This document shows positions 9,223 through 22,759 of a DNA stretch of 36,269 nt, piece after piece; positions within the stretch are counted from its first letter, which is position 1; each line of letters opens with the position of its first letter. The notes below the pieces were generated by a model. It had not been told where the DNA came from, did not search any database, and worked only from the letters and a program-made list of their open reading frames with translations. The position numbers were made by a program, and so were the translations under genes. Source of the stretch: an uncultured Agathobacter sp. (GTDB taxonomy: Bacteria; Bacillota; Clostridia; Lachnospirales; Lachnospiraceae); contig CAKRCS010000019.1 in NCBI GenBank assembly GCA_934307695.1, positions 1 to 36,269 of the forward strand. The letters are read 5' to 3'.

Positions 9223-9978
9223 ATGTTAAAGATCGCGATATACGGAAAAGGCGGAATCGGAAAATCAACAGTTACAAGTAATCTGGCGGCGGCATTTGCA
9301 ACGCTCGGCAAGCGGGTAATACAGATCGGCTGTGACCCGAAAGCAGATTCCACCATCAATCTGCTGCACGGCGTGCCGGTGCAGCCGGTTATGACCTACA
9401 TGAGAGAGAATGACGAAGATCCGACCGATTACACGCAGATCTCAAAGGAAGGCTTTGGAGGCGTGCTTTGCATCGAGACGGGCGGACCGACTCCGGGACT
9501 CGGATGTGCGGGAAGAGGAATTATCGCAACCTTCCAGCTTCTGGAGGATCTGGAGCTTTTTGAAAAGTACAAGCCGGATGTTGTGCTCTATGATGTCCTT
9601 GGGGATGTTGTGTGCGGTGGATTTGCCGCGCCGATACGCGAGGGATATGCCGAGCATGTCCTGATCGTCACCTCCGGAGAGAAGATGGCATTGTACGCGG
9701 CGGGAAATATCCATGCGGCGGTGAAGAATTTTGAGGACAGAGGATACGCGAGTATTTACGGAATCGTTCTCAACCACCGGAACGTAGAAAATGAAAACGA
9801 AAAGGTGGAAGCCTTCGCAAAGGAGCGGGGACTTCGCATTGTCGGCGAGATCCCAAGAAGCAATGAGATCAACCGCTATGAGGATGAGGGCAGGACGGTC
9901 GTTGAGGCGGATGCCGATATTCCGGTAAGCCGGTGCTTTATAGGACTGGCAAAGCAGCTGCTTGCAGACTGCAACTAG
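9223..9978 (+). CDS. NifH-like P-loop ATPase (nitrogenase reductase family)
   Basis: The product is 251 residues, shorter than classical NifH (about 275-295). It carries the P-loop YGKGGIGKST (residues 7-16) and GCDPKADST. The two cysteines that bind the bridging [4Fe-4S] cluster of a NifH homodimer are Cys95 in GLGCAGRG and Cys131 in DVLGDVVCGGF. The switch-like segment after SGEKMALYAAGNI is also present. These features mark an ATP-dependent electron donor of the NifH/BchL/CfbC superfamily. The shorter C-terminus and the partners point to a nitrogenase-like system rather than nitrogen fixation. It is the first gene after the leader and lies 36 bases before its NifD-like partner. It probably serves both NifDK-like pairs, since no second NifH is present in the window. 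The start follows AAGAAGGAAAG. Confidence 0.93.
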   Translation: MLKIAIYGKGGIGKSTVTSNLAAAFATLGKRVIQIGCDPKADSTINLLHGVPVQPVMTYMRENDEDPTDYTQISKEGFGGVLCIETGGPTPGLGCAGRGIIATFQLLEDLELFEKYKPDVVLYDVLGDVVCGGFAAPIREGYAEHVLIVTSGEKMALYAAGNIHAAVKNFEDRGYASIYGIVLNHRNVENENEKVEAFAKERGLRIVGEIPRSNEINRYEDEGRTVVEADADIPVSRCFIGLAKQLLADCN

Positions 9979-10014
9979 CAATAGATAAGAGAAAAAAGAC
10001 TTGGAGCATGATAT

Positions 10015-11343
10015 ATGACAGAAAAGCAACATGCAGTGTACTATACCGCAGAGGAACTGGTTCAACGTGGAAAAGAGAATATCCCAACGGAATTTATCTC
10101 AAACGAGCATCTGATTTACAGCTCTCCGGCAACGCTTGCGTTCAATTCGCCGGGCGCGGAGGGCTTTGGTGTAAAGCGGGCAGGACTTGCGGTTCCGGAA
10201 TCGGTCATGCTGATCGTTTCGCCGGGCTGCTGCGGAAGGAACACCTCACTGATCAGCAGGATGCCGGAATATAACAATCGTTTCTTCTATCTGACGATGG
10301 ATGAGGCGGACATCATCACGGGACGCCATCTGAAAAAGATCCCGCAGGCAGTCGCAGAGATCGTGGGTTTTCTGGACAAAAAGCCATCCGTTGTGATGAT
10401 CTGCATCACCTGTGTGGATGCATTGCTTGGTACGGATATGGACCGCGTCTGCCGAAAGGCACAGGAAGCGGCAGGAATACCGGTTCGCCCGTGCTATATG
10501 TATGCCTTGACAAGAGAAGGACGCAAGCCGCCGATGGTACATGTGCGGCAGTCAATCTACTCGCTGCTTGCCCCGGCAAAAAGAAATCCGGTGGCAGTAG
10601 ATATCTTAGGCTTTTTTGCACCGCTGGCAGATAACTGCGAGCTATACGATATCCTGCGTGCGCTTGGCGTGAAAAAGACAATGGAGATTTCGCGCATGGA
10701 GACCTACGGGGAATATCTGCACATGTCAGAAGCCAACTTCGCGCTGGTATTAAATCCGGAGGCGCGATTTGCTGCAAAGGATTTTGAGGAGCGGCTTTCG
10801 ATCCCTTCGATTGAGCTTACACGATTTTATGATATAAAGCGGATTCAGAAGCAGTACGCGGCACTTGCGAGAGCGCTCGGCAGCACGATTGATGATGCGG
10901 ACTACTATAAGAATGCGGAGCATGCGATCGAACGGTTAAAGGAACGGTTTGGTCAGGTGACATTTTCGGTCGGGGAGTGTTTAAACGCAGATCCGTTTGA
11001 GCTTTCACTTGCGCTTTTACAATATGGACATGCGGTGCCGGAGATCTTCGGAACGATCACGGCGGAGAATTTTATCTACCTTAAGCATATCGCACAGATC
11101 AGCCCGGACACGAAGGTGTATTCCAATCTGCATCCGTCCATGATCTTCTATGAGGAGGAGCAGACGGGAGGTCTGTTTGTCACGATCGGAAAGGACGCGG
11201 GCTACTACCATGAGGAATGTGCGAATCTTGCGTGGAATGCGGATGTGCAGCCGTATGGCTATCAGGCGGTCGAAGGGCTTTTTGATGCACTGTATGAGCT
11301 GCTTGACAAAGAGGCAGCCGGCAGCGGAAAGGAGCGGGAATGA
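10015..11343 (+). CDS. Nitrogenase component 1-like protein, NifD/NifE-type subunit (pair 1)
   Basis: The product is 442 residues. It shows the nitrogenase component 1 pattern: a short N-terminal region, then SPGCCGRN (Cys72, Cys73) at the place of the first P-cluster-type cysteines, then CITCVDALLGTD (Cys130, Cys133) resembling the third-cysteine loop with its following acidic residue. Rossmann-like repeats follow (VDILGFF, then a later segment around FSVGECL). It would form a heterotetramer-like complex with the next gene and receive electrons from the NifH-like ATPase. Family members include nitrogenases, cofactor scaffolds (NifEN), protochlorophyllide and chlorin reductases, F430 synthesis (CfbD) and methylthio-alkane reductase. 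The sequence does not look close to any one of these by eye. The stop overlaps the next start by 4 bases. Confidence 0.85.
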   Translation: MTEKQHAVYYTAEELVQRGKENIPTEFISNEHLIYSSPATLAFNSPGAEGFGVKRAGLAVPESVMLIVSPGCCGRNTSLISRMPEYNNRFFYLTMDEADIITGRHLKKIPQAVAEIVGFLDKKPSVVMICITCVDALLGTDMDRVCRKAQEAAGIPVRPCYMYALTREGRKPPMVHVRQSIYSLLAPAKRNPVAVDILGFFAPLADNCELYDILRALGVKKTMEISRMETYGEYLHMSEANFALVLNPEARFAAKDFEERLSIPSIELTRFYDIKRIQKQYAALARALGSTIDDADYYKNAEHAIERLKERFGQVTFSVGECLNADPFELSLALLQYGHAVPEIFGTITAENFIYLKHIAQISPDTKVYSNLHPSMIFYEEEQTGGLFVTIGKDAGYYHEECANLAWNADVQPYGYQAVEGLFDALYELLDKEAAGSGKERE

Positions 11344-21708: not shown

Positions 21709-21712
21709 CAGG

Positions 21713-22759
21713 ATGACAGAAAAGATGAATTTGATCGAAAAGCTGTATCAGACGCAGGATTTAAGCGATGATGAGTTTTTAGGCCTGCTTGGAGGCATGA
21801 CCGACGAGGAGAGAGAGCTTTTGTATGAGAGGGCGAGACAGACAGCTGTAAAGACCTACCAGAAGCAGATCTATCTGCGTGGCCTGATCGAGTTCACCAA
21901 CATCTGCAGGAATAATTGTTACTATTGCGGGATACGAAAAGGAAATGCAAACGTGCGCCGCTACCGTCTTTCGGAGGAGGAGATCATTGCCTGTGCAAAA
22001 AAGGGATATGCGCTCGGCTTCCGGACGATCGTTTTGCAGGGAGGAGAAGATCCGTACTATACCGATGAGAAGATCTGCTCCATTGTGCGGCAGATCCGGC
22101 GGGAGTGTCCGGATGCTGCCATAACCCTGTCGATCGGGGAGAAGGAGCACGACAGCTATCAGGCATATTTTGAAGCCGGGGCAGAGCGCTATCTTCTGAG
22201 GCATGAGACCGCGGATGAGACACATTATGGAATGCTGCATCCGGCGGAGCTTTCCGGTGCGCACCGCAAACAGTGCTTAAGAGATTTAAAGGAGATCGGC
22301 TATCAGGTCGGCTGCGGGATCATGGTCGGAGCACCGTATCAGACGAAGGAGCATATCCTTGCCGATGTGCGGTTCATGCAGGAGCTTAAGCCGCACATGA
22401 TCGGGATTGGACCGTTTATCCCACATAAGGATACGCCGTTTGCGAACGAGCCGGCGGGGACACTTACGGATACGCTGGAGCTTTTAGGCATTTTAAGACT
22501 GGCGTTTCCACACGTTTTGCTTCCGGCGACGACCGCGCTCGGAACGATCCACCCAAGAGGGCGGGAGCTTGGCGTGCTTGCGGGCGCAAATGTCATTATG
22601 CCGAACCTCTCCCCGACAAGTGTGCGCAAGGATTACATGCTGTATGACGGGAAAATCTGTACCGGGGAAGAGGCGGCGGAGTGCCATCACTGCATCGAGC
22701 GCAGGATGGAACGGATCGGCTATCAGGTTGTGGAGAACCGCGGAGATTACAGGGAATAA
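21713..22759 (+). CDS. hydE: Radical SAM maturase HydE
   Basis: The product is 348 residues, the expected length. The radical SAM motif is FTNICRNNCYYCGIR (Cys65, Cys69, Cys72), followed by the family segments TIVLQGGEDPYY, YLLRHETAD, GIMVGAPYQT, GPFIPHKDTPF and NLSPTSVRKDY. A second set, Cys316-x7-Cys324-x2-Cys327, matches the spacing of the non-essential second cluster of Thermotoga HydE. HydE converts the Fe(CO)2(CN)-cysteine product of HydG toward the [2Fe] cluster. It starts 4 bases after hydF. With HydG missing from the window, its substrate in this system is an open question. Confidence 0.96.
   Translation: MTEKMNLIEKLYQTQDLSDDEFLGLLGGMTDEERELLYERARQTAVKTYQKQIYLRGLIEFTNICRNNCYYCGIRKGNANVRRYRLSEEEIIACAKKGYALGFRTIVLQGGEDPYYTDEKICSIVRQIRRECPDAAITLSIGEKEHDSYQAYFEAGAERYLLRHETADETHYGMLHPAELSGAHRKQCLRDLKEIGYQVGCGIMVGAPYQTKEHILADVRFMQELKPHMIGIGPFIPHKDTPFANEPAGTLTDTLELLGILRLAFPHVLLPATTALGTIHPRGRELGVLAGANVIMPNLSPTSVRKDYMLYDGKICTGEEAAECHHCIERRMERIGYQVVENRGDYRE

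Follow-up and report, generated by a model that had tools for sequence, protein, structure and literature searches.

In HydEFG maturation of [FeFe]-hydrogenases, HydG is regarded as supplying the CO and cyanide of the H-cluster, while HydE and HydF build and carry an organometallic [2Fe] unit. HypCDEF makes Fe(CN)2(CO), and NifH/NifDK systems perform ATP-driven low-potential electron transfer and also serve as cofactor scaffolds, as in NifEN. We analysed a 36,269-nucleotide stretch of contig CAKRCS010000019.1 from an uncultured Agathobacter sp. (the window, meaning the whole stretch), in which a single-strand locus at 9223-22759 joins genes of all three systems: a nifH-like gene, two nifD/K-like pairs (D1K1 and D2K2), hypF-C-D-E, a TM1266 gene, hydF and hydE. 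The original prediction had proposed this combination, and every gene that it named was confirmed by reading frames and Pfam/NCBIfam scans. We think it likely that the cluster, hereafter the module, replaces HydG in H-cluster assembly, feeding the same iron synthon to HydE so that an ordinary H-cluster is made. This reading rests on the conserved gene order, on HydE and [FeFe]-hydrogenase accompanying the module while HydG is excluded, on the retention of key cysteines and on repeated switching in the HydE tree. The module genes in the window are:

9223..9978, + strand, NifH-like ATPase (Fe protein); PF00142, 285 bits, under all NCBIfam equivalog cut-offs
10015..11343, + strand, NifD1-like subunit; PF00148, sequence closest to NifE/NifD
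11340..12386, + strand, NifK1-like subunit; PF00148, sequence closest to NifE
12383..14722, + strand, hypF, carbamoyltransferase of cyanide ligand synthesis; TIGR00143, 762 bits
15296..15508, + strand, hypC chaperone, 70 residues; TIGR00074, 65 bits (cut-off 48), and PF01455, 81 bits
15535..16593, + strand, hypD, [4Fe-4S] scaffold of Fe(CN)2CO assembly; TIGR00075, 388 bits
within 16544..17653, + strand, hypE; TIGR02124, 432 bits
17676..17945, + strand, TM1266-family putative regulator of [FeFe]-hydrogenase systems; TIGR03959, 108 bits
17939..19267, + strand, NifD2-like subunit; PF00148
19264..20475, + strand, NifK2-like subunit; PF00148
20491..21708, + strand, hydF, GTPase scaffold of the H-cluster [2Fe] unit; TIGR03918, 548 bits (cut-off 325.6)
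21713..22759, + strand, hydE, radical S-adenosylmethionine (SAM) maturase; TIGR03956, 571 bits (cut-off 254.6)

The hypE profile match begins at residue 40, so the true start of this gene probably lies downstream of 16544. Intergenic distances run from -50 to +36 bases, the sole exception being a gap of 573 between hypF and hypC.

Compared with HydEFG maturation, the window's HydE, HydF and TM1266 are ordinary members of the system, HydE and HydF scoring over their curated cut-offs, but nitrogenase-like and Hyp genes occupy the place of HydG. Scans of window frames (31 with Pfam, 21 with NCBIfam) yielded no hydG (TIGR03955), hypA, hypB or hydA. The module's HypC, HypD, HypE and HypF pass their cut-offs with the examined cysteines intact, as in HypABCDEF maturation; what sets them apart is the missing hypA/hypB, their fixed linkage to nifHDK-like genes, and the lack of a [NiFe] large subunit in 22 of the 30 module-carrying genomes described below. 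With NifEN/NifDK, dark-operative protochlorophyllide oxidoreductase (DPOR), CfbCD and MarHDK the module shares a NifH-type ATPase and the D/K fold, seen in single-chain structure models of NifD1 and NifD2 (K1 and K2 are placed by sequence only). By sequence, D1 and K1 are near NifE, which suggests that they are used as a scaffold. Unlike those systems, the module has two D/K pairs, no NifB was seen among the scanned frames, and its NifH and D/K proteins fall under the curated cut-offs, the latter far under every one of them in NCBIfam (best NifE match 72 vs 505 bits). The ATPase models of tetrapyrrole reductases were likewise missed (CfbC 293 vs 402, BchL 197 vs 345, BchX 188 vs 331), and the D/K-type models of DPOR, chlorophyllide oxidoreductase (COR) and CfbCD gave 19-36 bits vs cut-offs of 268-529. 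The Cys of NifD that we take to be the ligand of the iron-molybdenum cofactor has no Cys partner in D1 or K2, the two proteins compared.

Key residues of the module proteins are conserved among relatives. The NifH-like protein keeps Cys95 and Cys131 in 83/83 relatives, presumably the [4Fe-4S] ligand positions as assigned by the nitrogenase Fe protein. Invariant cysteines are also found in NifD1 (Cys72, 73, 130, 133 and 160; 68/68), NifK1 (Cys37 and Cys42; 61/61), NifD2 (Cys63 and Cys123; 61/61) and NifK2 (Cys37; 53/53). HypC Cys2 and His45 are kept in 70/70 relatives, and the last residue of HypE is Cys in 66/66; we assume the catalytic roles of these conserved Hyp residues. The cluster cysteines of HydF are kept in 18-19 of 19 relatives and the HydE CX3CX2C motif (65, 69, 72) in 15/15. 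NifD2 also ends in a conserved K-G-x-G-C tail (residues 434-438), present in relatives from the importer-bearing loci described below that were included in the alignment; this tail might pass on a metal unit.

A profile of NifD1 relatives was compared with one genome per species (84,980 species), giving 495 pattern-matching stretches; 417 of these code for a relative, and the 80 best were retained. By title, these 80 module loci belong to Lachnospiraceae (Blautia, Roseburia faecis, Coprococcus comes and Eubacterium ramulus), Oscillospiraceae, Coriobacteria/Atopobiaceae and Clostridium (C. carboxidivorans, C. ljungdahlii, C. ragsdalei, C. drakei and others). Carriers thus number many gut bacteria and some gas-fermenting clostridia. 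A locus entered the gene-order count if it extended 9.8 kb or more downstream of NifD1, which was so for 54; the other 26 of the 80 were too short. The order nifH-D1-K1-hypF-hypC-hypD-hypE is intact in 54/54, and the same order in so many related loci is far beyond chance. The gene order is thus not unique to one assembly, and a functional link between the three machineries, as originally proposed, is strongly supported. Further along the same loci we counted NifD2 in 52, NifK2 in 49, TM1266 in 33, a second nifH in 32, hydF in 15 and hydE in 10; these are undercounts because the stretches end.

Whole-genome searches were made in 30 carrier genomes, hand-picked from the 80 loci for length, isolate status or spread. 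All 30 encode HydE and an [FeFe]-hydrogenase H-domain, the latter being the presumed client, while HydG over the cut-off was found in only two, C. drakei (948 bits; G024, L081) and C. thailandense (683 bits; G029, L082). HydG was not found in C. carboxidivorans P7 (complete chromosome) or Blautia massiliensis (main contig 3.5 Mb). With the patterns used, the H-cluster motif L2 could be read in the best HydA of 30/30 carriers, L3 in 29 and L1 in 21; the nine best HydAs without the L1 pattern retain L2 and L3, and one of them (L111) sits at a contig end. Comparison of contigs and coordinates placed hydE within about 20 kb of the module in 13/30 carriers and elsewhere in the genome or on another contig in the rest. 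With HydA searched genome-wide, the pattern expected by the original prediction, these genes together with hyp and hyd genes and no HydG, was borne out. C. drakei and C. thailandense, which carry HydG and the module together, are a natural place to compare the clients of each route. Two hydE copies occur in the module genomes G003 (C59, C276) and G302 (C4, C5), the second copy in G003 being partial with an internal stop.

The exclusion of HydG was also seen in two wider samples, drawn without regard to carrier status, for which strong matches were defined as >600 bits for NifD1 and >=560 bits for NifD2; the sampled genome tables carry no completeness values. The sampling centres (G004, G025) are carriers and were counted, and three of the 30 carriers were drawn again (G003 and G013 in the Lachnospiraceae sample, G028 in the Clostridia sample). 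Among 150 Lachnospiraceae genomes, 87 have HydE, 73 HydG and nine a strong NifD1; all nine of these have HydE and none has HydG (Fisher 1e-8 among HydE-positive genomes, kinship ignored). HypD was found in 9/9 of these carriers vs 16/141 others. Among 243 Clostridia genomes, 166 have HydE, 153 HydG and, by comparison of the listed rows, 150 both, leaving 16 with HydE and without HydG. Strong NifD1 was found in nine and strong NifD2 in 13, the nine included; all 13 fall among the 16 and none among the 150 with both (Fisher 8e-17, again with kinship ignored).

Thirteen HydE-positive genomes (six Lachnospiraceae, seven Clostridia) have neither HydG nor a strong NifD1, and we opened all of them but G397. 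In one of the six (G130) and three of the seven (G234, G352, G413) nifH-D2-K2 directly adjoins hydE, revealing a second HydG-less version in which a FecBCD importer stands in place of D1K1-HypFCDE. The loci concerned, together with related clusters, are arranged as follows:

G352 (L214): hydE-nifH-D2-K2-fecB-fecC-ATP-binding cassette (ABC) ATPase-hydF-TM1266
G413 (L218/L294): fecC-ATPase fused to TM1266-hydE-nifH-D2-K2-fecB-hydF
G234 (L213) and G130 (L174): sets similar to those of G352 and G413
G291 (L292), Clostridia: nifH-D2-K2, not beside hydE, with importer genes and two TM1266 stretches
G078, G236, G265, G290 and G296 (L178, L219, L221, L222 and L293): NifHDK-FecBCD clusters without hyd genes

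The D1K1-HypFCDE half is not seen beside L214, L218/L294, L213, L174 or L292. Conversely, the 80 module loci yielded no FecB relative at E 1e-5; FecC is represented there by one 59-residue end piece at the edge of L039, and the ABC ATPase matches are unspecific. Since nifH-D2-K2 also occurs in the importer version without the D1K1-Hyp half, D2K2 is what the two HydG-less versions share, with the Hyp half and the importer as putative alternative suppliers. The NifHDK-FecBCD clusters have homologous NifHDK proteins and the same FecBCD genes as the importer version but no adjoining hydE, hydF or TM1266; HydG is present in G236, G265 and G296, and HydE was not found in G078 or G290. These clusters are possible ancestors of the D2K2 part. 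In L218 the ABC ATPase carries the fused TM1266 domain.

Weak NifD1 matches (146-235 bits) were considered as divergent modules and rejected: in G234 and G352 the match is NifD2 itself, in G078, G236, G265, G290 and G296 it belongs to the NifHDK-FecBCD clusters without hyd genes, and in G385 to NifDK-like genes with FecB. One weak NifD1-like match in the Lachnospiraceae sample (226 bits) falls in a HydE-negative genome. No weak match was counted as a NifD1 carrier.

HydE differs little between HydG genomes and module genomes. In a HydE tree of 95 rows, 40 labelled as HydG-genome and 38 as module-genome, the two labels interleave: each requires 16 changes, and well-supported branches force at least 9 and 10 of these, respectively; for example, the HydE of Roseburia faecis, a module genome, groups with that of a HydG genome with support 100/97. 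The labels have thus switched repeatedly in the tree, and evolution appears to have paired HydE with each kind of supply on several occasions. In a comparison of 38 HydG with 38 module rows, after two long-branch or poorly placed rows were dropped, no HydE column was fixed differently between the groups (>80% in each), and of the 80 columns that reach 97% conservation in HydG genomes, 73 show the same residue, equally conserved, in module genomes. The simplest inference is that the module supplies the same product as HydG.

How the module might do this can be sketched as follows. HypF and HypE would derive cyanide from carbamoyl phosphate and attach it, together with CO, to the iron held by HypCD, as happens in [NiFe] maturation; NifH and the NifE-like D1K1 would then act as a scaffold taking over the iron unit from HypCD. 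NifH and D2K2 would use ATP-driven low-potential electrons to convert this unit, probably to the Fe(CO)2(CN) synthon normally delivered by HydG, perhaps by making CO. HydE would join two Fe(CO)2(CN) units, HydF would carry the [2Fe] product, and the apo-hydrogenase would receive an ordinary H-cluster. A more detailed version, which we offer only tentatively, is a second, HydG-free H-cluster biosynthesis assembled from two other cofactor machineries: the Hyp-made unit is carried by the NifEN-like D1K1, the reductase NifH-D2K2 removes and exchanges ligands to give Fe(CO)2(CN), and the extra CO comes from nitrogenase-type CO2 reduction; in the sister version, D2K2 would act on an iron compound imported via FecBCD.

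Several observations weigh against replacement of HydG by the module. Two of the 30 carriers have HydG as well as the module, and the absence of HydG is shown in genomes of relatives, not in the window's own genome. Eight of the 30 encode a [NiFe] large subunit: six are Clostridium, and the other two, among them the window's nearest relative, G001, have an Ech-like protein of about 360 residues; in these eight Hyp could serve [NiFe]-hydrogenase too. Nor are Hyp genes linked to every HydG-less set: five importer-version genomes (G130, G234, G291, G352, G413) do without that linkage, and HypD is absent in G130, the only one of the five searched for it. Six of the 87 HydE-positive Lachnospiraceae have neither HydG nor a strong NifD1 (NifD2 was not searched in that sample), and three of the 166 HydE-positive Clostridia have neither HydG nor a strong NifD2 (G230, G304, G397). 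Draft gaps may explain the remaining exceptions; those left without explanation are G230, G304 and G397 together with the Lachnospiraceae G068, G101, G143, G150 and G174. Both Fisher values are weakened by the neglect of kinship. In HydE, Phe61 is found in 37/38 HydG rows vs 30/38 module rows, and several variable columns differ in frequency between the groups. Two published observations also point the other way: a C. autoethanogenum HydG was assigned by its cysteine motif (PMC9431212), and extracts of Blautia luti showed low hydrogenase activity (PMC12773636). Finally, the support for the module's function is all genomic, and the CO source, the order of steps and the division of work between D1K1 and D2K2 are guesses.

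The original prediction went further than HydG replacement, envisaging a new CO/CN-ligated iron cofactor carried by a nitrogenase-like protein. As an end product this is less likely than an ordinary H-cluster made by a new route, because the carriers have [FeFe]-hydrogenase (30/30) and HydE (30/30), HydG is found in 2/30, and no HydE column is distinct; on the way to the H-cluster, however, the NifDK-like scaffolds may transiently bear an Fe-CO/CN species, and this forms part of our reading. We consider it improbable that such a cofactor stays on the NifDK-like proteins for a new reaction, with HydE and HydF borrowed. Two nitrogenase-like pairs do exceed the apparent needs of a simple maturase, and no curated NCBIfam equivalog covers the D/K proteins, but a resident cofactor would leave the loss of HydG with retained [FeFe]-hydrogenase and HydE unexplained, and HydE genes of both kinds interleave without a column that separates them.

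Somewhat harder still to accept is that the genes are coincidental neighbours, with Hyp serving [NiFe]-hydrogenase, the NifHDK-like proteins a tetrapyrrole- or sulfur-type chemistry, and HydE and HydF drawing on another source of CO and CN. The eight [NiFe] large subunits fit this, and their metal-binding motifs are present in 5/5 loci read; set against it are the 22 carriers without a large subunit, the fixed core order in 54/54 loci, and the mutual exclusion of module and HydG in two samples.

A divergent HydG or re-purposed ThiH that makes CO and CN but is missed by the HydG model, leaving the module some other task, appears very improbable. Atypical HydG-like radical SAM proteins have been proposed in several of these Clostridium (PMC9431212), and 16 of the 30 carriers do have a further TIGR03955 match below the cut-off (179-222 bits). 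These matches, however, end at position 372-401 of 470, without the C-terminal HydG part, and the best of them, the only one checked, passes the ThiH cut-off. In C. ljungdahlii and C. ragsdalei nothing exceeds 68 bits, and that match falls at HydE, although the same search recovers distant HydG over the cut-off in other genomes, down to 472 bits among the rows listed. To the notion that HydG is simply dispensable, HydE and HydF taking up free cellular CO and CN beside an unrelated module, we give almost no credence: HydE and HydF without HydG gave about 1% activation in vitro, doubled by added CO or CN (PMC9431212), but the NifD2 part in 13 of the 16 Clostridia with HydE and without HydG would go unexplained.

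Replacement of HydG by the module, by contrast, would bring together gaps already visible in published surveys. A survey of eight acetogenic Clostridium could locate no HydG in five, C. ljungdahlii included; C. ljungdahlii and four relatives have HypCDEF without HypAB, which was found in C. carboxidivorans and two others; the hypotheses offered for the missing HydG and HypAB, atypical HydG-like proteins among them, settle neither; and an [FeFe]-hydrogenase has been purified from C. autoethanogenum (PMC9431212). Blautia luti forms H2 and has two hydrogenase genes, hydABC and hydM, and a hydrogenase activity of about 23,000 mU/mg is cited for B. schinkii (PMC12773636). In the genomes of both Blautia species we found the module and did not find HydG; the strains may differ from the published ones. 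We found no description of a HydG-free route from these genes in the open-access papers searched, subscription papers and most preprints being outside that scope.

If HydG replacement is correct, the module would be a second natural route to the H-cluster cofactor, and Blautia, Roseburia faecis, Coprococcus comes and the industrial acetogens C. ljungdahlii and C. carboxidivorans would rely on an uncharted route for hydrogenase maturation. Nitrogenase-like enzymes would then take part in organometallic ligand chemistry, and Hyp proteins would have a client beyond [NiFe]-hydrogenase. The missing hydG and the hypCDEF without hypAB, two gaps in the literature, would become one testable hypothesis in culturable and genetically tractable organisms, and the module would offer new parts for hydrogenase production.

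Two further features of the window lie within or beside the cluster:

14768..15225, strand not assigned, insertion-like element of about 458 bases with 28-nucleotide imperfect terminal inverted repeats, between hypF and hypC
8881..8923, + strand, terminator-like hairpin of 20 pairs upstream of the cluster, by pattern match alone

The insertion-like element does not belong to the machinery; in the nearest relative (L001) the hypF/hypC gap is about 140 bases vs 573 in the window. The hairpin, together with a promoter-like match at 8945, is a possible left border of the operon, though the latter is a pattern match alone and such matches in the window do not exceed the shuffled mean. Scanning the window for Rfam families and tRNAs gave no hits. 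Directly 3' of hydE, at 22681-25673, lie an ABC ATPase and two ABC-2 type membrane proteins; the listed start of the ATPase frame overlaps hydE by 79 bases, and its domain begins later. These and the other genes after hydE have no evident link to the module. Upstream of the cluster, a 1937-residue frame without a Pfam match (501-6314) is followed by a glycosyl hydrolase family 5 gene (6330-8879).

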